Translations under genes and position numbers: made by a program | Assembly: GCF_017304635.1 (NCBI RefSeq) | Contig: NZ_JAFKMA010000001.1 | Coordinates: forward strand, 186,001-250,000 | Reading direction: 5' to 3' | Source of the DNA: Sphingomonas sp. | GTDB lineage: Bacteria; Pseudomonadota; Alphaproteobacteria; Sphingomonadales; Sphingomonadaceae | Length of the DNA: 64,000 nt | Notes under the pieces: generated by a model | Databases searched by the model: none | Seen by the model: the letters and a program-made list of their open reading frames with translations, nothing else | What the model was told of the DNA's origin: nothing | In this document: positions 20,831-43,048 of the stretch, one piece after another | Layout of the letters: the number at the start of each line of letters is the position of its first letter | Numbering within the stretch: the stretch's first letter is position 1

Positions 20831-20840
20831 ATTGGTTATA
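20831..20840. promoter_or_regulatory. Candidate NagR operator upstream of the nag operon
   Basis: ATTGGTTATA at 20831-20840 recurs exactly at 21736-21745 before the TonB receptor, and I noticed it in no other intergenic region of the window. It overlaps the cutC stop codon and lies 66 bases from the nagR start. The flanks ACCT...AGGT give weak dyad symmetry. Binding by the GntR protein is inferred from the shared position in front of two units of the same locus. Confidence 0.4.
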
Positions 20841-21735: not shown

Positions 21736-21745
21736 ATTGGTTATA
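21736..21745. promoter_or_regulatory. Candidate NagR operator upstream of the N-glycan TonB receptor
   Basis: Second exact copy of ATTGGTTATA. The core GGT-TAT-ACC (21739-21747) is a short inverted repeat of the kind bound by HutC-subfamily GntR proteins. It lies about 100 bases before the receptor start in the 247-base divergent gap between cutC and the receptor, which also contains an A+T-rich stretch (21670-21720) suited to promoters. If real, it ties expression of receptor and glycosidases to amino-sugar availability. Confidence 0.42.
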
Positions 21746-21844
21746 CCGGCCTCGAAGCTGCTCGGATGCACGCCGAAAGGGGTGCGACAAGAAGCGGCAA
21801 GACGGTCCGTCGCGGGAATGGTTCGGCTCTGGTTGGGGGTGGAT

Positions 21845-24677: not shown

Positions 24678-24712
24678 GCCGCCGACGGTGCATGACCGTC
24701 GGCGGCATTTTT
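24678..24712 (+). terminator. Rho-independent terminator between receptor and glycosidase operon
   Basis: Perfect 12-bp stem GCCGCCGACGGT / ACCGTCGGCGGC with loop GCATG, followed by ATTTTTG. This is a strong canonical terminator. It lies 50 bases before the hexosaminidase start, so the seven-gene glycosidase operon probably depends on read-through or on a promoter in the short gap 24713-24761. Confidence 0.85.
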
Positions 24713-24761
24713 GTCGGGCGGGACGGGCGGCAGCCCGATCCACGATAGTGATGATGGGAGC

Positions 24762-27095: not shown

Positions 27096-29659
27096 TGAAG
27101 TGGCTGGCGGCCGCCTCGCTGCTGGTCGCCATGCCGGCCATGGCAGAGCCGAAGCAGGTCACACCGCTCGACCAGGGCTGGCAAGTGCGGCTCGATCCCG
27201 CCGATCCGGCGGTCAAGGACCATCCGCGCGAGGCCGAGTGGTTCGCCGCGACCGTACCGGGCAGCGTGCAGCAGGATTTGATCGCGGCGGGCCGCGTGCC
27301 CGATCCGTATATCGGCCGTAACGAAGCGGCAATCCAATGGGTCGGGCTCGCCGGCTGGCAGTGGCGGCGGACGATCGACGTGACGCCGGCGATGCTGGCG
27401 CGGCGGCATATCGAGCTGGTCTTCGATGGCCTCGACACGTTCGCGACCGTCAGCGTCAACGGGCAGCAATTGCTGGTCGCCGCCAACGCGCATCGCCGCT
27501 GGCGGATCGATGCGAAGGCGGCGCTGCACGCCGGGCGCAACACGATCACCATCGCAATCGCTTCGCCGATCAAGCGCTTGCAGCCGATGGTACTGGCGAT
27601 AGCGCATCCGCTGCCCGGCGAATATGACAGCGCGTTCGGCGACGAGCCGAAGGGGCGGCAGACCTCGCCTTACATCCGCAAGCCGAAATACCAGTACGGT
27701 TGGGACTGGGGGCCGCGCATCGTTTCGATCGGCCCGTGGCGGCCGATCCGGATCGAGGCGTGGGACGATGCCCGGCTCGATACGCTGCGGGTCGAGCAGG
27801 AAGCGCTGAACGATACCGAAGCGCGGGTAATCGCGCGGCTCGACGTGGTCGCCGACGCGGCGGTACGGCGGCGGGTGCGAGCGGTGGTGACGACGCCCGA
27901 CGGGCGCACCGTTGCGGTCGAGCGCGACGTCGCGCTGGCACCCGGCGCGAATCATGTCGCCGTGCCGCTGACGATTGCTCGTCCGCAGCGCTGGTGGCCG
28001 GCCGGAGCGGGTGCGCAGCCGCTGTACAAGGTCACGGCGACGATCGGCGACGACGATCGGGCAGAGCGGCGCATCGGCTTGCACACGGTCGAGCTCGATC
28101 GTGTCAGCGGGGCGCTGACATTGCGCATCAACGGCCGGCCGATCTTCGCCAAGGGTGCCAATCTGATCCCGTTCGACGAGTTTCCGGCGCGTGTCACGCC
28201 TGCGCGGATGCGGTCGCTGCTGGCCGATGCCCGCACCGCCAATATGAACATGCTCCGCGTATGGGGTGGCGGCTATTACCTCGACGATGCGTTCTACGAC
28301 GCCGCCGACGCGATGGGGCTAATGGTGTGGCAGGACTTCATGTTCGGCGGCGCGGTGACGCCGCCCGACGCCGACTTCCGCGCCAGCGTCGTCGCCGAAG
28401 CCGACGAGCAGGTTGCACGGTTGCAGGCGCATCCGTCGATCGTCCTATGGTCGGGCGGCAACGAGATCCTGGCCGGCTGGGAGAATTGGAGCGACCGCAA
28501 GGCGTTCAAACGCGCGGTCGGCGCCGATGAGCAGGAGCGGATCGGTACCGGGATGGCCGTGTTGTTCGATCGCGTGCTGCGCGACGCGGTGGTGCGCAAC
28601 GCACCCGGCACGCCGTATTGGAACAACTCGCCGTCGAGCGACTATGAAGGGCCGATCGACACCGACGCGAACGGCGACCGTCATTTCTGGGACGTGTGGT
28701 CGGGGTCAAAACCGGTCGAGCGCTACCTCGACGGCTGCCCGCGCTTCATGTCAGAATATGGCTTCCAGGCGATGCCGGTGATGGTCACTATCCGCGCGTT
28801 CGCCGGCGATGGTCCGTTGACGCCCGACAGCGCGGTGATGAAGACGCATCAGAAGTTCCTCGACGGCGAGGGCAATGCACGGCTGCAATTCTACCTCGAT
28901 CAACGGCTGCGGCCGGCGCGCGATTTCGCCGATTTCGTGTACCTGACGCAGGTCGACCAGGCGCAGGCGATCGCGATGGCGGCGCTGCACCATCGCGCCT
29001 GCCGGCCTGTCACGATGGGATCGCTCTATTGGCAGCTCAACGATGTCTGGCCAGGGACGTCGTGGTCGAGCATCGATTATTACGGTCGGTGGAAGCTGCT
29101 GCATTATGCCGCGCGCCGCTTCTACGCGCTGCAGGCGATCGTCGCCGAGCATGTCGGCGGTGCGACGCGGATCGCTCTCGTGTCGGATGCCGCCGCGCCG
29201 ACTCCGGCAATGTGGCGAGTGCGTGCGATGGCGATGGACGGACGGTTGCTGAAACAGAGCAGCGCGACGGTCGTGCTGGCGCCCGACACCGCAATGGAGG
29301 CGGCGCGGCTCGACGATGCCGGGCTGTTCGGCGATGCGCCGGTGCCGTCGAGCTATGCGGTCGCCGAGCTGCTGGTCGGCGGCAAGGTCGTCAGCCGCAC
29401 GATCGTCGAGCGCGCTGTGCCCAGGGACATGGCGTATCCAGACCCCGGCCTGACCGTACGCTGGCAGGGCAATCGCGTGACGGTCACTGCGGCGCGGCTT
29501 GCCCGCGCGGTCATGCTCGATTTCGGAGCGGTGGCGGCGCAACCGTCGGATAACGGATTCGACCTCTTGCCGGGGGAGAGCGTGACGGTCACCGTCACCG
29601 CCGACGCGACGCCGGCCATCCTGGCCGGTGCGCTGACATTGCGGAGCCTTGCCCGATGA
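27092..29659 (+). CDS. GH2 beta-mannosidase, periplasmic
   Basis: Hydrolyses the single beta-1,4-mannose of the N-glycan core. The 855-residue protein has a Sec signal (MMKWLAAASLLVAMPAMA), a GH2 sugar-binding domain (VPGSVQQDLIAAGRVPDPY), the beta-mannosidase hallmark KPKYQYGWDWGPR, and a barrel with acid/base Glu458 in WSGGNEIL and nucleophile Glu555 in FMSEYGFQ. GGGYYLDDAFYDAADAMGL and GSLYWQLNDVWP further mark the beta-mannosidase branch rather than beta-galactosidase. It is linked by ATGA overlaps on both sides. Confidence 0.93.
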   Translation: MMKWLAAASLLVAMPAMAEPKQVTPLDQGWQVRLDPADPAVKDHPREAEWFAATVPGSVQQDLIAAGRVPDPYIGRNEAAIQWVGLAGWQWRRTIDVTPAMLARRHIELVFDGLDTFATVSVNGQQLLVAANAHRRWRIDAKAALHAGRNTITIAIASPIKRLQPMVLAIAHPLPGEYDSAFGDEPKGRQTSPYIRKPKYQYGWDWGPRIVSIGPWRPIRIEAWDDARLDTLRVEQEALNDTEARVIARLDVVADAAVRRRVRAVVTTPDGRTVAVERDVALAPGANHVAVPLTIARPQRWWPAGAGAQPLYKVTATIGDDDRAERRIGLHTVELDRVSGALTLRINGRPIFAKGANLIPFDEFPARVTPARMRSLLADARTANMNMLRVWGGGYYLDDAFYDAADAMGLMVWQDFMFGGAVTPPDADFRASVVAEADEQVARLQAHPSIVLWSGGNEILAGWENWSDRKAFKRAVGADEQERIGTGMAVLFDRVLRDAVVRNAPGTPYWNNSPSSDYEGPIDTDANGDRHFWDVWSGSKPVERYLDGCPRFMSEYGFQAMPVMVTIRAFAGDGPLTPDSAVMKTHQKFLDGEGNARLQFYLDQRLRPARDFADFVYLTQVDQAQAIAMAALHHRACRPVTMGSLYWQLNDVWPGTSWSSIDYYGRWKLLHYAARRFYALQAIVAEHVGGATRIALVSDAAAPTPAMWRVRAMAMDGRLLKQSSATVVLAPDTAMEAARLDDAGLFGDAPVPSSYAVAELLVGGKVVSRTIVERAVPRDMAYPDPGLTVRWQGNRVTVTAARLARAVMLDFGAVAAQPSDNGFDLLPGESVTVTVTADATPAILAGALTLRSLAR

Positions 29660-32178
29660 TATGGATTCTGCTCGCCGCGCAGGCGGCCGACCCGATCGCC
29701 GCCACGATCGCCACCATGACGATCGAGCAGAAGGCGGCCCAGCTGCAATCGAGCGCGCCCGCCGACGCGAAGGCGGAACTGCCCGCCTATGACTGGTGGA
29801 ACGAGGGGCTGCATGGCCTGGCGCGCAACGGCCCGGCGACGGTCTTCCCGCAGGCGATCGCGCTGGCGGCGACATGGGACCCCGACCTGCTCGGCCGCAT
29901 CGGCGATGTCGTTGCGACCGAGGCGCGCGCCAAGTTCAACGCGCGGCCGATCACCGCCAACCGGCGCCTGTACGAGGGGCTGACGATCTGGTCGCCCAAC
30001 ATCAACATCTTCCGCGATCCGCGCTGGGGGCGCGGGCAGGAAACCTATGGCGAGGACCCGTACCTGACCGGGCGGCTCGCGGTGTCGTTCATCGGCGGTT
30101 TGCAGGGGCCGGACCCGCGCCATCCCAAGGTCGTCGCCACGCCAAAGCATTTCGCGGTGCATAGCGGGCCGGAGGCGGGGCGCGACGGCTTCGACGTCGA
30201 TCCGTCCCCACGCGATCTGGAGGCGACCTACTTCCCCGCCTTTCGCATGGCGATGACCGAAGGCCACGCGCGGTCGCTGATGTGCGCGTACAACGCCATT
30301 CACGGCACGCCGGTCTGCGCGCTGCCCGCGCTGCTGGTCGATCGGCTGCGGCATGATTGGGGTTTTACTGGCTTCACCGTATCGGATTGCGACGCAGTCG
30401 CGAACATCGCGACGTTCCACCATTACCGGCTCGACAGCCCCGCGGCGGCGGCGGCGGCCCTGCGTGCCGGGACCGACATCAATTGCGGCTCGACATATGC
30501 GGCGCTGCCCGCGGCGGTCGCCGGCGGCCTGGTCGGCGTCGGCGAGGTCGATGCGGCGCTGACGCGGGCGTTCACGGCGCGCCGCGACCTCGGCATCGCA
30601 TTCGGCGGGACGTCGCCTTGGTCACGTATCGCGCCGAGCGAGGTGGCGACGCCGGCGCACCGTGCCGTCGCGCTGGAGGCGGCGCGCAAGTCGATCGTGC
30701 TGCTCCAGAACGCCAACGATCTGCTGCCATTGAAGGCGACGACGCGGCTCGCCGTGATCGGCGCCGATGCCGACGATCTCGGCGTGCTCCAGGGCAATTA
30801 CAACGGCGCGGCGTTCGCACCGGTGACGCCGCTGGAAGGGTTGGCGGCGCGGTTCGCGAGCGTCGACTATGCGCAAGGATCGGTGCTCGCGGAAGGCGCG
30901 CCGGTCGTCATGCCGCGCACCGCGCTGCGCAACCTGACCGCAACCTACACCGTCGCGGGCAAACCGATCGTCACGCGGCGCGAGGCGCGTATCGACCTCA
31001 ACCTCACGCGCATGCCGCCCGCCGCGGGCTTGCCGGTCAGTGGGTGGCAGGGGCATTGGGCCGCGACCTTCACGCCGCCGGGGCCGGGTCGCTACCGCCT
31101 GGTGCTGCAACAGGCGCAATGCTGGAAGGATTGCACGGAACATGACCGCGCCACGCTGACGCTGGGCGGTCACGTGTTGCACGACGGCGCGGTGCCGCAC
31201 GGACGGGTCGAGTTGACGATCGATAGCGACGGCACACCACAGCCGCTGGTACTCGATCTCGATCATCGCAGCGAGGACGAGAGCGTGCGGCTGCTGTGGT
31301 TGCCCCCCGCCGCGCCGTTGCTCGACGAAGCGGTGGCGAAGGCGAAGGCGGCGGATGTCGTCGTGCTGGTCGCCGGCCTCTCGCCCGATCTCGAGGGGGA
31401 AGCGCTGCCGGTGCGGGTGCCTGGTTTCGTCGGCGGCGACCGCACCGACATTGCCTTGCCCGAGCCGCAGGCGAAGCTGGCCGCAGCGTTGCGCGCGACC
31501 GGCAAGCCCGTCGTCCTGGTGCTGGCGAGCGGCAGCGCGGTCTCGGTCGATCCGGCATCGGCCGACGCGATCGTTGCGGCGTGGTATTCGGGCGAAGCGG
31601 GTGGGACGGCGCTGGCCGATACACTGGTCGGTGCGAACAACCCGTCCGGGCGGTTGCCGGTGACTTTCTATCGCTCGACCGCCGATCTGCCGGCGTTCGT
31701 CGATTATGGCATGAAGGAGCGGACCTACCGCTACTTCACCGGCACGCCGCTCTGGGGTTTCGGCCATGGGCTGAGTTACACGCGGTTCGGCTATGGCGAT
31801 GTTACTGCCACGGGAGCCGCGACCGGATCGCCGATCACGATCCGCGCGCGCGTCGCCAACCAGGGCGCGCGGGCTGGCGAGGAAGTCGTCCAGGCCTATG
31901 TCGTCCCGCCCGTCAGCGACGAGCAAACCGGCTTCACCGATCCCGTCCTGCAACGACAACTCGCCGGTTTCGCGCGGGTCGCGTTGCGGCCGGGGGAAGC
32001 ACGCACGGTCGCGATCACGCTCGATCCGCGCCGGCTGTCGACGGTCGCGCGCGACGGCACGCGCCGAGTTCTGCCCGGACGCTACCGCATCTGGATCGGC
32101 GGCGGCCAGCCGGGCGACGGGCCGGGCCAGTGGGTCGAGGTCGACCTGACTGGCAGTGCCGTGGTGCTGCCGAAGTGA
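29656..32178 (+). CDS. GH3 glycosidase with PA14-like insert, beta-xylosidase type
   Basis: An 840-residue GH3 enzyme. The N-terminal barrel opens with PAYDWWNEGLHGLARNG and IFRDPRWGRGQETYGEDP, which characterise the xylan beta-xylosidase branch; the nucleophile is Asp244 in TVSDCDAV. The second domain is split by a PA14-like module (about residues 410-540), and an Fn3-like domain ends the protein after GFGHGLSYTRF. The signal peptide is short (MIWILLAAQAA). In the X. campestris plant N-glycan cluster the GH3 member removes beta-1,2-xylose from the core; the same role is inferred here from gene order. A glucosidase activity cannot be excluded. Confidence 0.88.
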   Translation: MIWILLAAQAADPIAATIATMTIEQKAAQLQSSAPADAKAELPAYDWWNEGLHGLARNGPATVFPQAIALAATWDPDLLGRIGDVVATEARAKFNARPITANRRLYEGLTIWSPNINIFRDPRWGRGQETYGEDPYLTGRLAVSFIGGLQGPDPRHPKVVATPKHFAVHSGPEAGRDGFDVDPSPRDLEATYFPAFRMAMTEGHARSLMCAYNAIHGTPVCALPALLVDRLRHDWGFTGFTVSDCDAVANIATFHHYRLDSPAAAAAALRAGTDINCGSTYAALPAAVAGGLVGVGEVDAALTRAFTARRDLGIAFGGTSPWSRIAPSEVATPAHRAVALEAARKSIVLLQNANDLLPLKATTRLAVIGADADDLGVLQGNYNGAAFAPVTPLEGLAARFASVDYAQGSVLAEGAPVVMPRTALRNLTATYTVAGKPIVTRREARIDLNLTRMPPAAGLPVSGWQGHWAATFTPPGPGRYRLVLQQAQCWKDCTEHDRATLTLGGHVLHDGAVPHGRVELTIDSDGTPQPLVLDLDHRSEDESVRLLWLPPAAPLLDEAVAKAKAADVVVLVAGLSPDLEGEALPVRVPGFVGGDRTDIALPEPQAKLAAALRATGKPVVLVLASGSAVSVDPASADAIVAAWYSGEAGGTALADTLVGANNPSGRLPVTFYRSTADLPAFVDYGMKERTYRYFTGTPLWGFGHGLSYTRFGYGDVTATGAATGSPITIRARVANQGARAGEEVVQAYVVPPVSDEQTGFTDPVLQRQLAGFARVALRPGEARTVAITLDPRRLSTVARDGTRRVLPGRYRIWIGGGQPGDGPGQWVEVDLTGSAVVLPK

Positions 32179-33584
32179 TCGATCGTCGCGCGGTGCTGGC
32201 GGGCGGCGCGGCGCTGGTGGCGGGCCCGGTGCTGGCCGCCGTTCCTCGGTTCGCGTCGCGCCGACCGGCCCCGGGCGAGCGTCGCTTCGTCAGCCCGGCT
32301 GTCGAGCGGACGATCGTCGACGTCGGCCGGCGGATCGGCGATCCCAAGCTGGCCTGGATGTTCGCCAACGCCTGGCCCAACACGCTCGACACGACGGTGC
32401 TCGCGGCGAGCGAGAGCGACAGTTTCGTCATCACCGGCGACATACCGTGCCTGTGGCTGCGCGATTCCGCGGCGCAGATGCATTCGTACATGCCGCTGCT
32501 GCGCGACGATCCCAAGCTGGCAATGCTGGTTCGTGGCCTGATCGCGCGGCAGGCGCGGTCGATCCTGATCGATCCGTACGCCAACGCCTTCATGCAGGAT
32601 CCCGCTGCGGCGACCAGCCTCGACTGGGCGAAGCACGACGACACGGTGATGAAGCCGGGTGTCGCCGAGCGGAAGTGGGAAGTCGATTCGCTCTGCTACG
32701 CCATCCGGCTCGCGTACGGTTACTGGCAGGCGACGCGCGATCCGCGGCCGTTCGATGCGACCTGGGCGGAGGCGGCGCGGACGATCGTGCGCACGTTCCG
32801 CGAGCAGCAGCGCAAGCACGGCGAGGGGCCGTACCGTTTCCGTCGCAGCGCGCCGGAGCCGACCGAAACGCTGTCGGGTGGGTATGGCGCGCCGACGCGC
32901 AAGATCGGGCTGATCCATTCAGGGTTCCGGCCGTCCGACGATTCGTGCACCTATCCGTTCCTGATCCCCGCCAATCTGTTTGCGGTGACGGCGCTGCGCG
33001 AGCTTGCGGTGTTGGCGCGCGATGTGCGGCCGGAGCCGACGCTGGCCGCGGAGGCGACGGCGCTGGCCGACGAAGTGGCAAAGGCGCTCACGGCGCATGG
33101 CCGGATGCGCCTGCCCGACGGCCGTGCGGTCTGGGCCTATGAAATCGATGGGTACGGCAACGCGCTGTTCATGGACGACGCCAACGTCCCGTCGCTGTCG
33201 GGGCTGGCCTATCTCGGCTGCGTGACGCCGCGTGACCCGCTGTGGCGCACGACCGCGGCGGCGGCGTGGAGCGACGCCAACCCCTGGTTCTTCCGTGGCC
33301 GCGCCGGTGAGGGGATCGGCGGGCCGCATGTCGGGCGCCGCTACATCTGGCCGATGTCGCTGATCGTCCGTGCGCTGTCGAGTGACGACGACGCCACGAT
33401 CCGCGCCTGCCTCGCCACGCTGCGTGCGACCGACGCCGATACAGGCTTCATCCACGAGGCGTTCGACATGGACGATGCAGCGACGTTCACGCGGCCGTGG
33501 TTCGCCTGGGCCAATGGCCTGTTCGGCGAACTGATCCTGAAACTCGCGGCGAAGCGTCCGCATCTGTTGGAGGCGTTCGCGTGA
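32175..33584 (+). CDS. GH125 exo-alpha-1,6-mannosidase
   Basis: A 469-residue protein of the metal-independent alpha-mannosidase family GH125. It starts at GTG 32175 (GTGA overlap with GH3) with a twin-arginine signal (DRRAVLAGGAALVAG). Family motifs are GDIPCLWLRDSAAQMHSY with a conserved Asp, DDTVMKPGVAERKWEVDSL, SGFRPSDDSCTYPFLIPANL, MDDANVPSLSGL and TGFIHEAFDMDD with a conserved Glu. GH125 enzymes remove alpha-1,6-linked mannose from N-glycan cores after the alpha-1,3 arm is gone. Its order after GH3 and before GH92 matches nixI-J-K of Xanthomonas. Confidence 0.93.
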   Translation: MIDRRAVLAGGAALVAGPVLAAVPRFASRRPAPGERRFVSPAVERTIVDVGRRIGDPKLAWMFANAWPNTLDTTVLAASESDSFVITGDIPCLWLRDSAAQMHSYMPLLRDDPKLAMLVRGLIARQARSILIDPYANAFMQDPAAATSLDWAKHDDTVMKPGVAERKWEVDSLCYAIRLAYGYWQATRDPRPFDATWAEAARTIVRTFREQQRKHGEGPYRFRRSAPEPTETLSGGYGAPTRKIGLIHSGFRPSDDSCTYPFLIPANLFAVTALRELAVLARDVRPEPTLAAEATALADEVAKALTAHGRMRLPDGRAVWAYEIDGYGNALFMDDANVPSLSGLAYLGCVTPRDPLWRTTAAAAWSDANPWFFRGRAGEGIGGPHVGRRYIWPMSLIVRALSSDDDATIRACLATLRATDADTGFIHEAFDMDDAATFTRPWFAWANGLFGELILKLAAKRPHLLEAFA

Positions 33585-35905
33585 GGATCAGCCGGCGGAC
33601 GCTGCTGCAATCCTCGGCGCTCGCGCTCGCGATCCCGCGTGTCGCGCAGGCCGCGACGCGTACCGCGCCCAATCTGTTCGTCGGTACCGGCGGGCACGGG
33701 CATACCTATCCCGGCGCGACCCTGCCCTGGGGTATGGTCCAGCTGTCGCCCGACACCGATGTCGAGCGGTGGGATGCCTGTTCCGGCTATCATCGCGGCG
33801 ACACTTCGATCATGGGGTTCAGCCACACGCATCTGTCGGGCACCGGGATCGGCGACATGCTCGACGTGCTAGTGGTGCCGACTGCCAGCAAGGACAGAAA
33901 CGCGCCGGTGAAGCTCGTGCCGGGGACGCTTGCCGATCCGGGCGCGGGGTATCGCCAGCGCTTCACCGCAGAAGCCGCCGAGCCCGGTTATTACCGCGTC
34001 GCGCTGGAGAGCGGTGTGCGGTCCGAGTTGACGGTGACCGAGCGCACCGGCTGGCATCGGCATACGTTCCCGCCCGGACCGGGGCATGTTCTGATCGACC
34101 TGTCGCACCTTGTGCTGGACTCGTCCGACAAGCAGCCGCTGATCGACGATGCGCATATCGCGATCGATGCCAATGGCACGCTGACCGGCGGGCGGCGGGT
34201 GTTCCGCTGGGCGAAGGGGCGGCGGATCTTCTTCGCGATGCAGCTGTCGCGCCGGCCTAACCGCGTGACGCTGTACGGCGACGGCGATGTCGCGCAGCCG
34301 GGCGGTACGACGCGCGTCGACGGGCGGCGGCTGAAAGCCGTGTTGCACTATGACGATGCCGGGGCGGCACCGCTGTTGATCCGGTGCGGCCTGTCGGCGG
34401 TGAACGTCGATGGCGCGCGCGCCAATCTGGCGGCGGAGGCGCCGCATTGGCATTTCGACCATGTCCGCCACACGGCTCGCCGTCGCTGGGCGGGTTTGCT
34501 CGATCGCATCCGCGTCGACGGCGGCAGCGAGGACCAGCGCGTCATCATGGCCTCCGCGCTATATCATGCGTTGCTGGCACCGACCTTGGTATCCGACGTC
34601 AATGGGCGCTACCCGGCGCTCGACGGCAGTATCGCGCAAGTCCCGGCCAATGGCGCGGCGCACAGCACCTGGTCGCTATGGGATACGTACCGCGCGCTGC
34701 ATCCCCTGATGACCCTGATCGCGCCGGAGCGCACGAAGCTGCTGATCGACGATCTGATCCGTCAGACGGCGCAGTCGCCCTACGGCCCGCTGGTCTGGCC
34801 GTTGCAGGGCAAGGAAACGGGGACGATGATCGGCTGGCACGGCGTCGTGCCGCTCGCCGAAGCGCAGGCGAAGGGCATCCCCGCCGATTACGCCGCCGCC
34901 TGGCCGGCGATCCGCAAGCGCTCGTTCGATTTTACGGCGCCCGATCAGGACAACAGCCTTGGCCGTGACCTGTACGATGCCAAGGGGTATGTCCCCGCCG
35001 ATAAGGTGTTCGAAAGCGTCAGTCGAACGCAGGAATATGCCTATGACGACTGGGCGTCGTCGCATCTGGCGGGTGCGGCGGGCGCGGGCGCCGATGCCGA
35101 CCGGCTGCGCCAGCGATCGGGCAATTGGCGCAACGTCATCGACGGCACGATCGGCTTCGCCCGCCCGCGGTTCGCCGACGGCAGCTGGTGGACGCCGTAC
35201 GACCCGATCCAGCTCGGCCACATGCCCAAGCCGTGGTGGCGCGATTATACCGAGGCCAACGGCTGGCAGGCGACGTTCCTCAACCAGCACGACGTCTATG
35301 GCCTGATCGCACACATCGGCGGCGATGCGACGTTCGAGGCGAAGCTCGACGCGCTGTTCACCGCGCCCTCGACGCTGCCGGCGAACGCGCCACCCGACAT
35401 ATCGGGACTGGTCGGGCAATATGCCCACGGCAACGAGCCCGACCAGCACGCGGCCTATCTCTACGCCTTCGCCGGACTGCCGTGGAAGACGCAGGCGATG
35501 GTACGGCGTTTGTGCACCGAAATGTACCGGAACGACCCCGACGGCGTCATCGGCAACGACGATTGCGGCCAGATGAGCGCGTGGTTCGTGCTGTCGGCGC
35601 TCGGCTTTTATCCGGTCGATCCGGTCGAGGCGGTGTACGTGTTCGGATCGCCGCTGTTCGAACGTGCCGTGGTTTCGATGAGGGAGGGGCGGCGGCTCGT
35701 CATCGAAGCGCCGGGTAATAGCGCCATGACGCCATATGTGCAGTCGGTGACGTGGAACGGCGAGCCATGGACGCGGAGCTGGATCGCGCATGCCGATCTG
35801 GTGCGCGGCGGCAGGTTGCGCTTCACTATGAGCGCGACGCCCAATCGGACGTTCGGCCGCGCGCTCGCCGATCGGCCACCGTCGTTCGGTCGACAGCCCG
35901 GGTGA
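33581..35905 (+). CDS. GH92 exo-alpha-mannosidase
   Basis: A 774-residue calcium-dependent alpha-mannosidase of GH92. The GTG at 33581 overlaps the GH125 stop; the N-terminus (RISRRTLLQSSALALAIP) is a twin-arginine signal peptide. Diagnostic motifs are GTGGHGHTYPGATLPWGMVQ, GFSHTHLSGTG, SLWDTYRALHPL, and near the end GNDDCGQMSAWFVLSALGFY and GSPLFERAV. Linkage specificity (alpha-1,2, -1,3, -1,4) varies in GH92; by analogy with NixK, alpha-1,3-mannose is likely. Confidence 0.95.
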   Translation: MRISRRTLLQSSALALAIPRVAQAATRTAPNLFVGTGGHGHTYPGATLPWGMVQLSPDTDVERWDACSGYHRGDTSIMGFSHTHLSGTGIGDMLDVLVVPTASKDRNAPVKLVPGTLADPGAGYRQRFTAEAAEPGYYRVALESGVRSELTVTERTGWHRHTFPPGPGHVLIDLSHLVLDSSDKQPLIDDAHIAIDANGTLTGGRRVFRWAKGRRIFFAMQLSRRPNRVTLYGDGDVAQPGGTTRVDGRRLKAVLHYDDAGAAPLLIRCGLSAVNVDGARANLAAEAPHWHFDHVRHTARRRWAGLLDRIRVDGGSEDQRVIMASALYHALLAPTLVSDVNGRYPALDGSIAQVPANGAAHSTWSLWDTYRALHPLMTLIAPERTKLLIDDLIRQTAQSPYGPLVWPLQGKETGTMIGWHGVVPLAEAQAKGIPADYAAAWPAIRKRSFDFTAPDQDNSLGRDLYDAKGYVPADKVFESVSRTQEYAYDDWASSHLAGAAGAGADADRLRQRSGNWRNVIDGTIGFARPRFADGSWWTPYDPIQLGHMPKPWWRDYTEANGWQATFLNQHDVYGLIAHIGGDATFEAKLDALFTAPSTLPANAPPDISGLVGQYAHGNEPDQHAAYLYAFAGLPWKTQAMVRRLCTEMYRNDPDGVIGNDDCGQMSAWFVLSALGFYPVDPVEAVYVFGSPLFERAVVSMREGRRLVIEAPGNSAMTPYVQSVTWNGEPWTRSWIAHADLVRGGRLRFTMSATPNRTFGRALADRPPSFGRQPG

Positions 35906-38157
35906 TCGCCGCGGCGATCCTGCTGGCCGGCATGGCGCGGTTCGATTGCGTCGTCGCCGGGCCAGGCGGTGCGGTGGCGGCCGACCTGCTGGCGGCCCGA
36001 TTGGCGGAGCGAACCGGACGCGCGGTGTCGCGTGAACCGTGCCGGCGGATGCTGCTGATCGCTCCGACGCCCGCGATCACCGCGCAATTGCCGCGAGGAG
36101 CGAGGGGCGAGTGGCAGCGAGTCCGTCCGCGTCGTCAACCGGCCGAGGGCTATGCGGTGCGACGCGTGGGCGAGATGACCGTGATCGCCGCGCCCCGGCT
36201 GCGCGGGCTCGTCTACGGCGCGGGGTGGGCGTTGCGCGCGCTACGCGGGGACAACAGGCTGGCAGGGGCGATGCGGATCGATGCCGCGCCAGCCTATCCG
36301 GCGCGGCTGACCCAGATCGGCTATCGTGCTAAGAACAATACCTACGATGCCTGGACGCTGGCGATGTTTCAGCGACGGATCGAGGATCTCGCGCTGTGGG
36401 GAGCAAGCGGGGTGCAGGTGATCGCGCCGGTGTCCGACGATGCGGCGGCCAGCTCGCTGTTTCCGGCACCGCCGTTGCCGACGCTCGCCGGGATCGGCCG
36501 GATCGCGCATCGGCTGGGGATCGATTTCGCGCTCTATTACCCGCTGCTCGGCGATTACGACAAGTCGGGGGAAACGGCGGCGGAGATGGGCCGGCTCCGC
36601 GATCTGCTCGCTTCCTTGCCGCAGGTCGATGCGCTCTACATTCCGGGCGGCGACCCTGGGCACAGCCCGCCGCCCACGCTGTTTCGCGTCGCGCGACAGG
36701 CGGCCGAGTTCGCGCGCGCAGCCAATCCGGCGACCCGGCTGTGGGTATCGACGCAAGGGTTCGATGCCGCGGGATACGAGGCGTTCTACGCCGAACTGGC
36801 GAAGCGGCGGGACTGGCTGACCGGCATCTTCGTGGGCCCGCAATCGCGCGACCCGCTGCCGCGGCAACGCGCGCGCATCCTGGCGCGCTATCCGGTCGAG
36901 CTCTATCCCGACATCGGCCACACGATGCACGCGCAGTTTCCGGTCGATCGCTGGCACCCGGCGTTCGCTCTAACGGAGGGACGGGAGCCGATCGACCCGC
37001 GCCCGGTCGCGTTCGCCGCGATCTTCCGCCGCTTCGCTCCCTTGTCGCAGGGGTTCGTGACCTATTCGGAGGGGGTCAATGACGACGCCAACCAGTATCT
37101 CTGGATGCGGCTCGGATGGACGCCACAAACCGATCCGGCGTCGGTGATGGCGGAATACGGGCGCACCGTCGTCGGCGACGAACGCGCGGGCGCGCTGACG
37201 GTCGCGCTCGAGCGGAACTGGGTGGGCGACCCGGCCGGCAATGACGGCATCGACGCGACGCTGGCGATGGCGGACGGGCTGCGCGGCGACGGGTGGCAGG
37301 CGGACAGCCTGCGATATCGCACAGTGTACGATGCGCTGGTTCGGGCGCGACTGATCGCGGCGCGGGCACGCGATGCGGCGGCGACGATGGCGTTGAGGCG
37401 CGGTGACGCCGATGGTGCGCTGGCGGCCTATTCGACGCCGGATGGTCAGCGCGCGACGAAGCTGCGCAACCGCCTGTTCGCGTTGGCGGCGCGCTTGTAC
37501 GCCAAGGCGCGGCTGCAGCTCAGCGTGCCGCTCTATGGCGCGTCGGATGTCGAGCGCGGCGCCAATCTCGATCGCGTCGACGTGCCGCTCGACGATCGCA
37601 CCTGGTTGACGCCACGGATCGCGGCGGCGCGGGGCGATCGGACGGCACTCGCGCGTCTGGCGGATAATGCGCGGGCGAGCGAAGGCGCGCTCTACGACGA
37701 CCTCGGCGATCCCGATCACGAGCCGCATCTGGTGCGCGGGCAAGGGCTGACAACCGATCCGCAAGGCTTCGCGACGGCGATCGACGGCATCGCCGACCGC
37801 ACGCCGGCGGACGGCTGGCGCCTGTCGCAGATCAGCTATGCCGAGACGCTCTACGACGCGCCGCTGCGGTTACATTATGCCGGGCTCGACCCGCGTCGCG
37901 CCTATCGCCTGATCGCGACTTGGGCGGGCGAGGATTACGCGCTGCCGATGCAGCTCGTCGCCAACGGCACGATCGAACTTCATCCCTTCCGCCCTCGGAC
38001 CGGCAATCCCGAGACAGTCGAGATCGCGATCCCGCGCGCCGCCACCGCGCGCGGCACGCTCGACCTCGCGTGGCGACGACCGCCTGGCATGGGGGGCAGT
38101 GGACGCGGCCACCAGATCGCCGAAACCTGGCTCATCCCTGAAGGAGCGACAAAGTGA
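35902..38157 (+). CDS. Unclassified putative glycoside hydrolase, 751 aa
   Basis: I do not recognise an established CAZy family. Residues about 1-115 look like the alpha/beta accessory domain placed before GH20/GH67/GH84 barrels (YAVRRVGEMTVIAAPRLRGLVYGAGWALRAL, the strand-helix pattern ending in 'GLxYG'). A TIM-barrel-like domain starts near residue 137 (QIGYRAKNNTYDAW, then LYYPLLGDYD, YIPGGDPGHSPPPT at about 248, YPDIGHTMHAQFP at about 335, TYSEGVNDDANQYLW at about 387). The end (AYRLIATWAGEDYALPMQLV) suggests a beta-sandwich. Acidic residues in GGDPGH and SEGVNDD are candidate catalytic groups. The N-terminal hydrophobic stretch is weak as a signal. GTGA overlaps with GH92 and GH29 place it firmly in the glycosidase operon. 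Confidence 0.8.
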   Translation: MIAAAILLAGMARFDCVVAGPGGAVAADLLAARLAERTGRAVSREPCRRMLLIAPTPAITAQLPRGARGEWQRVRPRRQPAEGYAVRRVGEMTVIAAPRLRGLVYGAGWALRALRGDNRLAGAMRIDAAPAYPARLTQIGYRAKNNTYDAWTLAMFQRRIEDLALWGASGVQVIAPVSDDAAASSLFPAPPLPTLAGIGRIAHRLGIDFALYYPLLGDYDKSGETAAEMGRLRDLLASLPQVDALYIPGGDPGHSPPPTLFRVARQAAEFARAANPATRLWVSTQGFDAAGYEAFYAELAKRRDWLTGIFVGPQSRDPLPRQRARILARYPVELYPDIGHTMHAQFPVDRWHPAFALTEGREPIDPRPVAFAAIFRRFAPLSQGFVTYSEGVNDDANQYLWMRLGWTPQTDPASVMAEYGRTVVGDERAGALTVALERNWVGDPAGNDGIDATLAMADGLRGDGWQADSLRYRTVYDALVRARLIAARARDAAATMALRRGDADGALAAYSTPDGQRATKLRNRLFALAARLYAKARLQLSVPLYGASDVERGANLDRVDVPLDDRTWLTPRIAAARGDRTALARLADNARASEGALYDDLGDPDHEPHLVRGQGLTTDPQGFATAIDGIADRTPADGWRLSQISYAETLYDAPLRLHYAGLDPRRAYRLIATWAGEDYALPMQLVANGTIELHPFRPRTGNPETVEIAIPRAATARGTLDLAWRRPPGMGGSGRGHQIAETWLIPEGATK

Positions 38158-40064
38158 CCGACCTGACCCGCCGCAGCCTCGTCGCGTCCGGCCTGGCGCT
38201 GTCCGCCGCGCCGGCGCTGGCCCGTGCCGACGTGGCGCCGCCCGCACCCTGGGGCGCCGTCCCCTCCGCGCGGCAATGGGCGTGGCATAAGCGCGAGCGC
38301 TACGCCTTCGTCCACTTCTCGATCAACACCTTCACCGACAAGGAATGGGGCTATGGCGATGAAAGCCCGGCGCTGTTCAATCCGACCGATTTCGATCCCG
38401 ACCAGATCGTCGCGGCGGCGAAGTCGGCGGGGCTGACCGGGCTGATCCTGACGGCCAAACACCATGACGGCTTCTGCCTGTGGCCGACGCTGCTGACCGA
38501 GCATTGCATCCGGAATTCGCCGTACAAGGGTGGCAAGGGCGATATCGTCGGCGAACTGGAGCGCGCGGTCCGCCGCGCCGGGCTGTCGTTCGGCCTGTAC
38601 CTGTCGCCGTGGGACCGCAACCACGCCGAATACGGCCGCCCGGCTTATGTCGATTATTACCGCCAGCAGGTCGTCGAGCTTTGCACGCGCTACGGCGAGT
38701 TGTTCGAGTTCTGGTTCGACGGCGCGAATGGCGGCGACGGCTATTATGGCGGGGCGCGCGAGACGCGGAAGATCGACGCGCCGCGCTACTACGACTGGCC
38801 GTCGATCATCCGGCTGGTTCACCGGCACCAGCCGATGGCATGTACGTTCGATCCGCTCGGCGCCGATATCCGCTGGGTGGGCAACGAGGACGGCGTGGCG
38901 GGCGATCCGTGCTGGCCGACCATGCCGAACCATCCCTACGTCCAGGCCGAAGGCAATAGCGGGGTGCGCGGAGCGCCGCTGTGGTGGCCGGCGGAGACCG
39001 ACGTGTCGATTCGCCCCGGCTGGTTCTATCATGCCGACGAGGATGCGCGGGTGAAGACGCCCGAGCGGCTGGTGCGGCTTTACGATGAGTCGGTCGGGCG
39101 AGGAACGAACCTCAATCTCAACCTGCCGCCCGATCGGCGCGGGAGGATCGCCGATGCCGATTTGGCGTCGCTTGCGTCGTTCGGCGCGGCGATGCGCGCG
39201 ACGTTCGCCAGTGATCTGGCGCGAGGAGCCGTCGCGCATGCCAGTGCGTCGCGTGGCGCGCGATTCGCGCCGTCGCGCGTGCTCGACGGGGATCGCGAGA
39301 GCTATTGGTCGACCCCGGATGACGTCACCACGCCCAGCCTCACGCTCGATCTCCCGCCGGGGCGGTCGTTCGACCTGATCCGGTTGCGCGAATATCTGCC
39401 GCTCGGCGCCCGCGTCACACGGTTCGCGCTCGATGCCGAGGTCGATGGCGCCTGGCGGACGCTGGCCGAGCATGACTGCATCGCGGCGCAGCGACTGATC
39501 CGCTTGCCGCAGCCGATCGCCGCGCGACGCGTGCGGCTGCGCATTCTCGAGGCGCCCGTCTGCCCGGCGGTCAGCGAGGTCGCGCTGTTCCGCCAAGTCG
39601 CACCGACGCCTGTCGCGGTCGCGCGCGTGAGCGATCCAACGGTGCTCTCGAATACGCATTGGTCAATAGTGACGGCGTCGGGAGGCGATGCCCGACGATC
39701 GATCGACAGCGACCCAACCACCGCCTGGGTCGTGCCGGCGCCGAACGCCGTCCGGCCAGCCAGCGTCACGATCGATCTCGGCACGCCGGAAGCGCTTGCC
39801 GGCTTTTCGCTGACTCCGAGCCGCGCCGTCATGACCGGCACCGCACCGCCGCGCGGCTACGTCGCGGAGACGAGTATCGATGGCAAGGCATGGGCCATGG
39901 CCGCGATAGGGGAGTTTCCAAACATCGCCTACGCTTTGTCGACGCAGCGCATCGTTTTTGCGGTGGCACGACCGGCGCGATTCCTGCGGCTTACCTTCGC
40001 TGCGACCGCTATCCCCGCCGAGAAGCTCGGTATCGCCGAGATCGGTGCTTTCGTCGCCAAATAA
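38154..40064 (+). CDS. GH29 alpha-L-fucosidase with C-terminal F5/8-type domains
   Basis: Removes alpha-linked fucose from glycans. The 636-residue protein has a twin-arginine signal (LTRRSLVASGLALSA), then a GH29 barrel with YAFVHFSINTFTDKEWGYG, TAKHHDGFCLWP and the nucleophile Asp189 in FEFWFDGANGG. This pattern suits the GH29-B subfamily, which prefers alpha-1,3/1,4-fucose, as found on plant core GlcNAc and Lewis antennae. After about residue 345 come one or two discoidin (F5/8C)-like modules that probably bind carbohydrate. GTG 38154 overlaps the previous stop and has AAGGAG 7 bases upstream. Free fucose would feed the next four genes. Confidence 0.93.
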   Translation: MTDLTRRSLVASGLALSAAPALARADVAPPAPWGAVPSARQWAWHKRERYAFVHFSINTFTDKEWGYGDESPALFNPTDFDPDQIVAAAKSAGLTGLILTAKHHDGFCLWPTLLTEHCIRNSPYKGGKGDIVGELERAVRRAGLSFGLYLSPWDRNHAEYGRPAYVDYYRQQVVELCTRYGELFEFWFDGANGGDGYYGGARETRKIDAPRYYDWPSIIRLVHRHQPMACTFDPLGADIRWVGNEDGVAGDPCWPTMPNHPYVQAEGNSGVRGAPLWWPAETDVSIRPGWFYHADEDARVKTPERLVRLYDESVGRGTNLNLNLPPDRRGRIADADLASLASFGAAMRATFASDLARGAVAHASASRGARFAPSRVLDGDRESYWSTPDDVTTPSLTLDLPPGRSFDLIRLREYLPLGARVTRFALDAEVDGAWRTLAEHDCIAAQRLIRLPQPIAARRVRLRILEAPVCPAVSEVALFRQVAPTPVAVARVSDPTVLSNTHWSIVTASGGDARRSIDSDPTTAWVVPAPNAVRPASVTIDLGTPEALAGFSLTPSRAVMTGTAPPRGYVAETSIDGKAWAMAAIGEFPNIAYALSTQRIVFAVARPARFLRLTFAATAIPAEKLGIAEIGAFVAK

Positions 40065-40120
40065 TACTCTTGCTATAAAAACTATTTTGACTGATGAAAT
40101 ACGCAAGAGAGAGGGTGGGC

Positions 40121-40861
40121 ATGCGCTTCGATGACAAGGTCGCGCTCGTCACGGCAGCGGGCAATGGCATCGGCCGGGCGGTCGCGGAGCGGCTGCGCGA
40201 CGAGGGCGCGCGCGTCTGGGCGCTCGATCGCGATGCCGCGGCGCTGGCGACGATCGCCGGTGTCGAACGGGTGACGATCGACCTCACCGATGCGGAGGCG
40301 GTTGCGGCATTGCCTGATCGCGTCGGTCCGGTCGACGTCATCGCCAATATCGCGGGATTTGTGGCGGCAGGGGACATCCTGACGTGCAGCGATGCCGACT
40401 GGGCCTTGTCGTTCGACCTCAACGTCACCGCGATGCATCGCGTCATCCGCGCGTTCCTGCCCGGCATGCTGGCGCACGGCGGCGGTGCGATCGTCAACAT
40501 GAGCAGCATCGCGTCGAGTGAGAAAGGCATCCCCGGCCGCTATGCCTATGGCGCGTCCAAGGCGGCGGTGATCGGGCTGACCAAGTCGATCGCGGCGGAC
40601 TTCGTCGGTCGCGGTATCCGGTGCAACGCGGTGTGTCCGGGAACGGTCGAGACGCCTTCTTTGCGCGAGCGGATTGCCGCGCAGGCGAGTGCCACCGACA
40701 GTTCGGTCGACGAGGTTACTGCGGTCTTCGTCGCGCGCCAGCCGATGGGTCGCCTCGGCCGCGCGGACGAGATCGCCGCGCTCGTCACGTATCTTGCCAG
40801 CGACGAAGCTGGCTTCACCACCGGCGCCGTCCACGTGATCGACGGCGGCTGGCTGACATGA
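40121..40861 (+). CDS. SDR dehydrogenase, probable 2-keto-3-deoxy-L-fuconate dehydrogenase
   Basis: A 246-residue short-chain dehydrogenase: NAD-binding TAAGNGIG near the N-terminus, NIAGF, and catalytic Ser (NMSSIAS) with YGASK. Segments such as CPGTVETPSL and FVARQPMGRLG resemble the BDH2/DHRS6 group, which includes the 2-keto-3-deoxy-L-fuconate dehydrogenase of Xanthomonas. The adjacent hydrolase and fuconate dehydratase support that role; L-fucose dehydrogenase is the alternative. ATG 40121 is preceded by a GAGAGGG ribosome site. The gap of 56 bases after the fucosidase may hold its own promoter. Confidence 0.85.
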   Translation: MRFDDKVALVTAAGNGIGRAVAERLRDEGARVWALDRDAAALATIAGVERVTIDLTDAEAVAALPDRVGPVDVIANIAGFVAAGDILTCSDADWALSFDLNVTAMHRVIRAFLPGMLAHGGGAIVNMSSIASSEKGIPGRYAYGASKAAVIGLTKSIAADFVGRGIRCNAVCPGTVETPSLRERIAAQASATDSSVDEVTAVFVARQPMGRLGRADEIAALVTYLASDEAGFTTGAVHVIDGGWLT

Positions 40862-40871
40862 AGGCATTGCC

Positions 40872-41717
40872 ATGAAGCTGCTGCGCTATGGTCCGATCGG
40901 CGAGGAACGCGCCGGTCTTCTCGATGCGGACGGGGCGATCCGCGCGTTGCCCGAGGCGCTGGGCGATCTTGGTGGCGCGCGGCTGACGCCCGCCGGCCTG
41001 GCGGAGATTGCGGCGCTCGATCCGGCCGCGCTGCCGGTCGTGCCCGGCAACCCCCGCATCGGCGCCTGCATCGCGCGGCCGGGCAAGTTCGTCTGCATCG
41101 GACTCAATTATTCGGATCACGCCGCCGAGACCGGTGCCCAGCCGCCCGCCGAGCCGATCGTGTTCGGCAAATGGACCAGCGCCGTGGTCGGGCCGGACGA
41201 CGACGTCATCATTCCGCGCGGGTCGGAAAAGACCGACTGGGAGGTCGAGCTCGGTGTCGTGATCGGTAGTGCGGCGCGCCATGTCGATGCCGCCGACGCG
41301 CTGGCGCACGTCGTGGGCTATTGCGTGGTCCACGACGTGTCGGAGCGCGCGTTCCAGCTCGAGCGCGGCGGGATGTGGGACAAGGGCAAGGGGTGCGACA
41401 GCTTCGGCCCGATCGGCCCGTGGCTGGTGACGACCGACGACATTCCCGACCCGCAGGCATTGCGGCTGTGGCTGGAGGTGGACGGGCATCGCTATCAGGA
41501 CGGCACCACCGCCAACATGATCTTCACCGTCGCCGAACTGGTCGCCTATGTCAGCGGGTTCTGCACGCTGGAACCTGGCGACATCATCGCGACGGGCACG
41601 CCGGCCGGTGTCGGGCTTGGGCAGAAGCCGCCGGTGTTCCTGCGGCCCGGCCAGACCGTGCGGCTCGGTATCGACGGGCTCGGCGCGCAGACCCAGCGGA
41701 CGGTCGCCGCAGCATGA
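40872..41717 (+). CDS. Fumarylacetoacetate hydrolase-family protein, probable 2,4-diketo-3-deoxy-L-fuconate hydrolase
   Basis: A 281-residue FAH-fold enzyme. Its divalent-metal site is visible in FVCIGLNYSDHA, TDWEVELGVVIG (acidic ligands) and VGYCVVHDVSERAFQ; KGKGCDSFGPIGPWL and ATGTPAGVG are further family landmarks. In the non-phosphorylated L-fucose route this enzyme splits 2,4-diketo-3-deoxy-L-fuconate into pyruvate and L-lactate, fitting its place between the dehydrogenase (10 bases upstream) and fuconate dehydratase (ATGA overlap). Confidence 0.88.
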   Translation: MKLLRYGPIGEERAGLLDADGAIRALPEALGDLGGARLTPAGLAEIAALDPAALPVVPGNPRIGACIARPGKFVCIGLNYSDHAAETGAQPPAEPIVFGKWTSAVVGPDDDVIIPRGSEKTDWEVELGVVIGSAARHVDAADALAHVVGYCVVHDVSERAFQLERGGMWDKGKGCDSFGPIGPWLVTTDDIPDPQALRLWLEVDGHRYQDGTTANMIFTVAELVAYVSGFCTLEPGDIIATGTPAGVGLGQKPPVFLRPGQTVRLGIDGLGAQTQRTVAAA

Positions 41718-42991
41718 CGCGCATCGTCGGGATGCGAACCGTGGACTTGCGGTTCCCGACCAGCCTGGCGCTGGACGGGTCCGACGCGATGAATCCCGAC
41801 CCCGATTATTCGGCCGCTTATGTCATTCTCGACACCGACACGCCGGGCCTCGCGGGACATGGCCTGACCTTCACGATCGGTCGCGGCAACGAGGTGTGCA
41901 TCGCCGCGATCGAGGCGATGCGGCATCTGGTGATCGGGCTCGATCTCGACTGGATCGCCGCGCATCCGGGCGAGATGTGGCGGCGGTTGACCGGCGATAG
42001 CCAGTTGCGCTGGATCGGGCCGGACAAGGGCGCGATGCATCTGGCGACCGGTGCGGTCGTCAACGCGATCTGGGATTTGTGGGCGAAGGCGGCGGGCAAG
42101 CCGCTGTGGCGGCTGGTAGCCGACATGACGCCGGCGGAGATCATCGCCGCGATCGATTTCCGCTATCTGACCGACGCGATCACCCCGGATCAGGCGCTCG
42201 CGCTGCTGACGGAACGCGCCGCCGGCAAGGCGGAGCGGATCGCGCGGCTCCAGCGCGAAGGCTATCCCTGCTACACGACCTCGGCCGGGTGGCTCGGCTA
42301 TCCCGACGACAAGCTGCGCCGCCTGGCCCGCGAGGCAGCCGCGGCCGGGTTCGAGCATGTGAAGCTGAAGGTCGGCCGCGACCTTGACGACGATGTCCGC
42401 CGCGTGCGCATCGCGCGTGATGAGCTCGGGCCCGACCGGCGGCTGATGATCGACGCGAACCAGGTGTGGGAGGTCGGCCAGGCGATCGAATGGATCAACG
42501 CGCTCGCCTTCGCCGATCCGTGGTTCGTCGAGGAACCGACCAGCCCCGACGATGTGCTGGGCCATCGCGCGATCCGCGACGGCATCGGCGGGATCCGCGT
42601 TGCGACCGGCGAGATGTGCCAGAACCGCATCCTGTTCAAACAGTTCATGGCGGCGGGCGCGGTCGATGTGGTCCAGCTCGATGCGTGTCGCGTCGGCGGG
42701 GTGAACGAGGCGCTGGCGGTGCTGTTGCTGGCGGCGCGGTTCGACTTGCCGGTCTGTCCGCATGCCGGCGGGGTCGGGCTGTGCGAATATGTCCAGCATC
42801 TGTCGATGATCGATTACCTGTGCTTCTCCGGCACGACCGACGGGCGCGTCGCGGAATATGTCGATCACCTGCACGAGCATTTCGTCGATCCGTGCATCGT
42901 CGAACACGCCGCCTATCGCGCGCCCGCTCAGCCGGGCTATTCGATCGAGATGAAGCCGGAGACGCTGGTCGATTATCGCTATGTGCCATGA
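41714..42991 (+). CDS. fucD: L-fuconate dehydratase
   Basis: Enolase-superfamily enzyme that removes water from L-fuconate to give 2-keto-3-deoxy-L-fuconate, in the cytoplasm. The 425-residue protein has the K-x-K motif (Lys217, Lys219 in HVKLKVG), metal ligands in DANQVW, VEEPTSPDD and ATGEMCQNR, and the catalytic His in CPHAGGVGL. This arrangement matches the characterised Xanthomonas L-fuconate dehydratase. The ATG at 41714 overlaps the upstream stop. Confidence 0.94.
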   Translation: MTRIVGMRTVDLRFPTSLALDGSDAMNPDPDYSAAYVILDTDTPGLAGHGLTFTIGRGNEVCIAAIEAMRHLVIGLDLDWIAAHPGEMWRRLTGDSQLRWIGPDKGAMHLATGAVVNAIWDLWAKAAGKPLWRLVADMTPAEIIAAIDFRYLTDAITPDQALALLTERAAGKAERIARLQREGYPCYTTSAGWLGYPDDKLRRLAREAAAAGFEHVKLKVGRDLDDDVRRVRIARDELGPDRRLMIDANQVWEVGQAIEWINALAFADPWFVEEPTSPDDVLGHRAIRDGIGGIRVATGEMCQNRILFKQFMAAGAVDVVQLDACRVGGVNEALAVLLLAARFDLPVCPHAGGVGLCEYVQHLSMIDYLCFSGTTDGRVAEYVDHLHEHFVDPCIVEHAAYRAPAQPGYSIEMKPETLVDYRYVP

Positions 42992-43048
42992 CGTCGCGGT
43001 CTGTCGGCAATAAGCTCGACGGCGCGAGGAAATAGGAGAGGGGGGAAG

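Follow-up and report, generated by a model that had tools for sequence, protein, structure and literature searches.

Plant N-glycans carry a core alpha1,3-fucose and a beta1,2-xylose. The nix cluster of Xanthomonas, the subject of work by Dupoiron in 2015, reportedly has members of glycoside hydrolase (GH) families GH3, GH92, and GH125, and its nixF is presumably of the GH18 type. According to a portion of its published description, the cluster of Xanthomonas campestris is a multi-glycosidase N-glycan system, in which NixF (COG3858) is the enzyme for the bond between two N-acetylglucosamine (GlcNAc) residues, GlcNAc-beta1,4-GlcNAc (PMC5700972). Excerpts of two further papers describe plant N-glycan breakdown by PNGases or by stepwise exo-enzymes, with a GH20 acting on the last chitobiose (PMC10154615, PMC9522356). 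In this study, we analyzed a stretch of 64,000 nucleotides from Sphingomonas sp. (assembly GCF_017304635.1, contig NZ_JAFKMA010000001.1, positions 186,001-250,000 of the forward strand), hereafter the window, which likewise holds a set of several glycosidase genes and, among them, a gene for a 751-residue protein that we call X (P0001). Whereas Xanthomonas has nixF, the genome of the window has no compact GH18 (an open frame under 700 amino acids, picked by eye) and has X instead. The only GH18 match in this genome belongs to a GH18-deacetylase-GT2 fusion, and no GH85 match was obtained there.

Judged from its conservation and its predicted structure, X represents a real, conserved, unassigned protein family with a known fold, and we consider this family a good candidate to be added as a new one to the GH families. 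Taking the readings of core, antenna, and exo cleavage together, it is likely that X acts on a beta-linked GlcNAc. Our tentative proposal is that X hydrolyzes a beta-N-acetylglucosaminide bond with GlcNAc-beta1,4-GlcNAc of the chitobiose core as the first candidate. The GTG start of X overlaps the TGA stop of a GH92 gene, and the same arrangement recurs at its other end, where the TGA of X overlaps the GTG of a GH29 gene; the 751-residue frame and these GTGA overlaps, as described in an earlier sequence-only reading of the window, are present, and the frame is conserved in relatives. It remains open upstream as far as an alternative GTG at 35752, but the start at 35902 agrees with that of the closest relatives (L004/L032, L005/L033), the starts of relatives having been chosen as those nearest to where they were expected. 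Species genomes were scanned once with two peptide patterns, by which distant relatives are missed, and this gave 66 X loci. X is annotated as a hypothetical protein in all three plasmid records that hold it, and none of the papers listed in our literature search describes it by title or abstract start or joins N-glycan degradation, Sphingomonas, and glycoside hydrolase.

The structure model of X (pLDDT 90, pTM 0.91) contains the accessory alpha/beta domain, the barrel, and the beta-rich end that the sequence-only reading had claimed, together with a helical part between barrel and sandwich that it did not mention (Table 1). The barrel strands of the model lie at residues 134-139, 170-174, 208-212, 244-247, 279-283, 308-311, 332-334, and 384-388, and all four motifs quoted in that reading (YRAKNNTYDAW and PGGDPGHSPP among them) occur in the translation, following predicted strands 1, 4, 7, and 8. 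Structure prediction with fold comparison, the check proposed there, gave a GH84/GH115/GH67/GH20-like architecture with the barrel present. GH115 is the top fold row, though with a root-mean-square deviation (rmsd) of 16.4, and GH67 is nearly tied; among the matches listed, the N-domain and barrel also match GH84 and GH20.

On the one hand, no family could be assigned to X by sequence, as had been stated from the sequence alone, and no clear hit emerged in Pfam, NCBIfam, or PDB sequence searches with X as the query. Pfam and NCBIfam gave no family for P0001, a looser limit yielding one sub-threshold DUF4838 row of 10.3 bits; phmmer of P0001 against PDB sequences gave two chance-level rows only, and PDB sequence searches with P0001, A1, and L139 gave nothing meaningful. 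Neither P0001 nor the 41 members of our alignment A2, at E up to 1, matched Pfam GH84 (NAGidase), GH20, GH67M, GH67C, GH115, GH18, or GH85. On the other hand, the claim of an N-domain of the kind preceding GH20, GH67, and GH84 barrels gains support for the GH67/GH20 type from Pfam scans of A2, from the profile of alignment A3 against the PDB, and from hhalign. The GH67 N-terminal domain was matched by 24 of the 41 A2 members (best 7.4e-5) and GH20b by 17 of 41 (best 1.5e-4), both at E up to 1, and neither by P0001 alone. The A3 profile reached GH84 and GH67 entries of the PDB via the N-domain (E 1e-6 to 1e-5), and GH20 entries likewise.

Assignment to GH67 by the barrel was considered and rejected. 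Full-length hhalign gave 89.5% and 95.5% to GH67, yet the barrel alone gave 14.6%, with 30.6% to GH29, 0.4% to GH20, and 5.1% to one protein annotated as being of the GH84 type; the C-terminal part had no match (GH67 0.2%). Because the split profile puts the signal in the N-domain (96.3% to GH67, 92.4% to GH20), X is not filed under GH67. The GH67 comparison set was L099-L103, with Pfam confirming four of the five, all but L102, which was left out of the scan. X thus has the N-domain in common with GH67 alpha-glucuronidases but has no GH67M or GH67C match and has a C-terminal beta sandwich. The GH115 alpha-glucuronidases give the top fold row, at the rmsd stated above; X is smaller and has no Pfam GH115 match.

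Conserved acids lie at the strand ends of the barrel in the X family, as had been expected, in both alignments. A2 has 41 rows, P0001 and 40 of the 66 loci. A3 has 28 rows, including the outgroups L139 (910 residues) and L133 (639 residues), which are remote Acidobacteriota relatives of X with no NCBIfam match; counts over 26 omit both. A3 leaves out L114 (the same gene as L079) and the partial L130 and L136, and L095, whose frame ends early, and L096, at a contig edge, are left out of the alignments. Judged from the alignments and the model, Asp251 and Asp337 would be the likeliest catalytic pair of X. The equivalent of Asp251 is kept in L139 with no acid there in L133, and position 337 is Glu in both outgroups. 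In the patch after strand 8, Glu390 is found in all 41 rows of A2 and as 23 Glu and 3 Asp among the 26 of A3, and Asp394 and Asp395 are each found in 26/26. Other conserved strand-end residues are Arg142 (invariant), Lys144, and Asn146 after strand 1, Asp180 after strand 2, Gln285 after strand 5, and Tyr335 and His340, next to Asp337, after strand 7; Arg361 and Glu362 are conserved between strands 7 and 8.

GH84 enzymes have an Asp-Asp pair after strand 4, and GH20 enzymes have an Asp-Glu pair (GGDE). No such pair is present in X in A2, A3, or the model, where the single Asp251 is directly followed by Pro252, invariant in A2. X differs from GH84 (NagJ/O-GlcNAcase), with which it has a common fold, in the single Asp251 and in having no Pfam catalytic match, and from GH20 beta-hexosaminidases, with which it has the GH20b-type N-domain in common, in having GGDP for GGDE. 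In this respect, we consider it distinctly unlikely that X is an exo-beta-hexosaminidase standing in, with a divergent sequence, for GH20 or GH84. The GH84 and GH20 fold matches would fit such an enzyme, as would the presence of a GH20 of the window's kind in only 28 of the 66 loci, but GH20 and X coexist in those 28 loci, and neither a GH20 or GH84 catalytic match in Pfam nor the strand-4 pair is found.

Table 1. Coordinates of X, its parts and candidate active-site residues, and the neighboring genes in the window.
Feature	Position	Strand	Basis or remark
X, glycosidase-like protein, no family match	35902..38157	+	open frame, 751 aa, GTG start, TGA stop
N-terminal region, X residues 1-130	35902..36291	+	GH67N/GH20b-type alpha/beta domain; short hydrophobic start, possibly signal-like
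(beta/alpha)8 barrel, X residues 131-391	36292..37074	+	structure model and fold matches
Helical part, X residues 392-596	37075..37689	+	structure model
C-terminal beta sandwich, X residues 597-751	37690..38154	+	structure model
Asp251 after strand 4 (PGGDPGH), candidate catalytic acid	36652..36654	+	41/41 in A2, 26/26 in A3; putative role
Asp337 after strand 7 (YPDIGH), candidate second catalytic residue	36910..36912	+	41/41 in A2, 26/26 in A3; putative role
Glu390 to Asp395 after strand 8 (EGVNDD), conserved acidic patch	37069..37086	+	A2 and A3 alignments
PTS EIIBC, EI-HPr-EIIA, GalA-like GH2, NagA-like amidohydrolase, SIS, GntR/UTRA regulator, CutC	11163..21597	-	divergent block
TonB-dependent receptor	21737..24577	+	Pfam scan
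GH20 gene	24711..27095	+	Pfam scan
GH2 gene with beta-mannosidase-type Ig domains	26624..29659	+	Pfam scan; longest open reading frame
GH3 gene	29656..32178	+	Pfam scan
GH125 gene	31296..33584	+	Pfam scan; longest open reading frame, true start probably later
GH92 alpha-mannosidase-family gene, overlaps X start	33497..35905	+	Pfam scan
GH29 alpha-L-fucosidase-family gene, overlaps X end	38154..40064	+	Pfam scan
SDR, FAA-hydrolase, enolase-superfamily dehydratase, MFS genes	40094..44323	+	putative L-fucose catabolism and uptake

In Alphaproteobacteria, X clearly lies in an N-glycan-type context. The locus is read as one for plant N-glycans because mannose, xylose, fucose, beta-mannose, and GlcNAc are the contents of a plant N-glycan; the GH3 gene is taken to encode a beta-xylosidase by analogy with Xanthomonas NixI, and the divergent block, from its gene content, would serve GlcNAc uptake and catabolism. 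Synteny was followed by tblastn with the window genes over flanks of at most 10 kb, some loci being cut by contig ends. Genes of the window's kinds recur in the 66 loci as GH92 (54), GH29 (47), GH3 (39), GH2 (38), GH125 (31), GH20 (28), TonB receptor (26), and CutC (22), and within 600 bp of the X match GH29 is found in 45 and GH92 in 41 of the 66. GH125 is present in 43/43 X-bearing genomes versus 180/295 of the genus overall (hypergeometric 6e-11, kinship uncorrected). A Novosphingobium locus (L088) has a TonB receptor, GH92, X, and Asparaginase_2 beside CutC, SIS, and NagA-like genes, X of a Granulicella tundricola locus is accompanied by GH29, a GH20-fold protein, and a TonB receptor, and X adjoins SIS, NagA-like, and ROK genes in Nitrospirillum-type loci.

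Several details of these loci were also observed. In L054, L059, L060, L063, L069, and L090, X is preceded by SIS, NagA-like, and ROK genes (a pair of ROK genes in L054), and GH29 and GH92 run the opposite way, as does GH125 in five of the six. A GH20-fold protein immediately follows X in two Granulicella loci and is encoded about 6 kb from it in a third (L155:16341-18494, L082:12354-14522, and L084:18613-20751, all on the + strand), with a weak GH20 catalytic match, seen by Pfam for L082 and L084. The GalA-like beta-galactosidase gene of the window (15325-17733, - strand) is interrupted in its N-terminal domain by an in-frame stop, which the protein of a relative (L077) spans in a single-frame alignment (787 positions, 67% identity); the gene is likely broken, or the stop a sequence error. 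The recurrence of the CutC-family gene (20836-21597, - strand, in the window), named for copper homeostasis, is a hint that it acts in the metabolism of amino sugars or glycans.

Based on this context, X would be an exported glycoside hydrolase of GH84/GH115/GH67/GH20-type architecture, working in a plant-type N-glycan utilization system of Alphaproteobacteria. The TonB receptor would import glycopeptides, GH92, GH3, GH125, and GH2 would strip mannose, xylose, and beta-mannose, GH29 would remove fucose, and the flanking catabolic genes would take the released GlcNAc and fucose. X itself may use Asp251 with Asp337 and/or the Glu390/Asp394/Asp395 patch. The chitobiose core is the candidate bond because, once the bonds assigned to the other enzymes are set aside, GlcNAc-beta1,4-GlcNAc is left with no enzyme dedicated to it in the window set, unless the GH20 of the set serves. 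It is very unlikely that X is another exo-glycosidase, such as a xylosidase or a mannosidase specific for one arm, or that it is a non-catalytic barrel protein: these bonds seem to be handled already by GH3, GH92, GH125, and GH2, and the invariant acids at several strand ends favor catalysis.

A number of observations weigh against cleavage of the chitobiose core by X. Since it has a single strand-4 acid and no pair, the standard GH84/GH20 substrate-assisted mechanism is not apparent. The alpha-glucuronidases of GH115 and GH67 fit the fold of X as well as GH84 and GH20 do. GH92 and GH29 of the window's kind are both absent from 12 of the 66 loci, of which L073 and L096 are short contigs or cut by a contig end, and the X of a Sphingomonas parapaucimobilis plasmid adjoins DISARM and cas3 with no glycosidase annotated within 10 kb, which speaks against a purely N-glycan role. 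Divergent Acidobacteriota relatives adjoin sugar-acid-type, BNR-repeat, or unrelated genes: L147 is beside HpcH/HpaI aldolase, 2-hydroxyacid dehydrogenase, and GH4 genes, L152 beside DHDPS-family and FAA-hydrolase genes, and two Acidobacteriaceae loci beside DHDPS-family genes. These neighbors and the GH115 and GH67 fold rows would also fit an X that acts, like GH67, GH115, and alpha-galacturonidases, on a uronic-acid or other non-GlcNAc sugar, and that in N-glycan loci would trim a rarer decoration. In addition, the N-domain of L081 weakly matches the NCBIfam alpha-galacturonidase model (18 bits against a cut-off of 1300), and Arg142 and Lys144 could hold a carboxylate. However, we consider such an activity rather unlikely, given the tight linkage with GH92, GH29, and GlcNAc genes in Pseudomonadota; no uronate genes were noticed among the window genes scanned, and plant N-glycans are not known to carry uronic acid.

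Further points against core cleavage come from the other enzymes that act on GlcNAc. A GH20 is already present in the window, and hydrolysis of leftover chitobiose is reported for a GH20 of Bacteroides (PMC9522356). GH85 is present in 9/43 X-bearing genomes and within two of the 66 X loci, L053 and L086; in the nine genomes of the genus with both, it sits outside the X locus, and in the Asticcacaulis locus L053, GH85 and Asparaginase_2 share the X locus. In an Asticcacaulis plasmid, X has a nearby gene whose annotation is that of a beta-N-acetylglucosaminidase domain protein; tblastn with this gene product matched nothing in the window, in the 66 loci, or in 13 stretches from Acidobacteriota. 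Among the matches listed, 16 of the 137 GH125-positive, X-negative genomes have GH85 or compact GH18 and 121 have neither, so that no enzyme of these types seems obligatory. The sequence-only reading had supposed that X supplies a bond cleavage missing from the set. This is weakened by the GH85 of 9/43 X-bearing genomes, by the chitobiose hydrolysis reported for the Bacteroides GH20 (PMC9522356), and by the 137 of 180 GH125-bearing genomes that have no X. The cleavage of GlcNAc-Asn, also suggested there, is less likely, because 14 of the 66 X loci carry a separate Asparaginase_2 gene. One of these bears an NHDT motif that is presumably glycosylasparaginase-like. The Asparaginase_2 of the window's own genome (GTVG motif) looks to us like an isoaspartyl peptidase.

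Displacement of other enzymes by X was also considered. Displacement of GH85 was rejected because the two are positively associated (GH85 in 9/43 X-positive versus 9/252 X-negative genomes, odds ratio 7.1). Displacement of compact GH18 in the genus is weakly suggested: none of the 43 X-bearing genomes overlaps with the at least 22 compact-GH18 genomes, of which G398 may be a cut fusion (P 0.027, kinship uncorrected), and within GH125-positive genomes the overlap is 0/11 among the matches listed (P 0.045).

The coexistence of X with GH85 and Asparaginase_2 would be no problem if X were GH163-like and cut GlcNAc-beta1,2-Man, removing an antenna as a unit or GlcNAc alone and so exposing mannose for GH92, which is within 600 bp in most loci as counted above. 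We regard this as possible but doubtful, although it fits the co-occurrence facts as well as core cleavage does. DUF4838 is printed as GH163 in a section of one paper (PMC9870897), and a passage of a review describes a GH163 that cuts GlcNAc-beta1,2-Man in an endo manner (PMC10154615). The Acidobacteriota frame L139 bridges the two groups: it matches the X profile in four collinear stretches (positions 79-760, E 6.8e-50), P0001 directly (E 8e-24), and DUF4838 with 32.1 bits, above the cut-off of 26.6, over about the last 50 profile positions alone. From these sequence matches, L139 links X with DUF4838 and might itself stand for another family. However, P0001, with a weak common segment near YSEGVNDD, stays at its 10.3 bits, far under the cut-off and below true GH67 proteins, which score 12.3-14.5 bits with the DUF4838 tail. 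The link of X to DUF4838 is therefore suggestive only, because this tail also weakly touches true GH67 proteins. GH20, in its 28 loci, could do the same job. DUF4838 was found in 0/99 genomes of the order and exceeded the cut-off in 0/11 X-bearing genomes, and no GH163 structure paper was among the matches listed in our search on GH163/DUF4838.

In terms of distribution, X was found in 3/296 sampled genomes of the order, all three of the same genus, and in 43/295 genomes of the genus, both counts including the window's own. The record titles of the 66 loci include Sphingomonas, Sphingobium, Novosphingobium, Caulobacter, Asticcacaulis, Nitrospirillum, Niveispirillum, and Acidobacteriota; several of the X-bearing Alphaproteobacteria are leaf isolates by strain name, and one is from Chinese cabbage. 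In the phylum of the Terriglobus relative, the A2 profile matched 15 of 199 sampled genomes, 10 of which have a near full-length relative because five matches are N-domain-sized stretches only. In the 28-row tree, Pseudomonadota rows are nested inside Acidobacteriota rows (nesting forks 84/84, 89/96, and 92/90); an Acidobacteriota origin is a reading and not a proof, because these forks are not starred and the root is a midpoint root. As a separate observation, a palindromic repeat with the exact arm CTTCGCCGGAATGAC lies inside the X frame, in the N-domain, in L029, L030, L031, L051, L058, L061, L064, L068, L070, and L075, some of which are the same genome. Each of these loci has one exact arm and no other, with a variant inverted partner in the loci looked at, and the window has none; the repeat resembles elements that invade protein genes.

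In summary, X is conserved in N-glycan-type loci of Alphaproteobacteria, and in Acidobacteriota, and is annotated as hypothetical in the three plasmid records. A more specific form of the core reading, which we consider unlikely, is that X founds a new GH family whose active site is built differently (a single Asp251 at strand 4, Asp337 at strand 7, and the Glu/Asp patch at strand 8) and which cleaves plant N-glycans bearing xylose and core alpha1,3-fucose at their chitobiose core, the family having arisen in Acidobacteriota and passed to plant-associated Alphaproteobacteria. Endo activity on such glycans is seen in no GH18 or GH85 according to one part of a 2023 review (PMC10154615). X may bear on how plant-associated bacteria with neither PNGase nor compact GH18 process the N-glycan core. 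Its activity, once assigned, could label the whole family and might yield a tool for plant-glycan editing.
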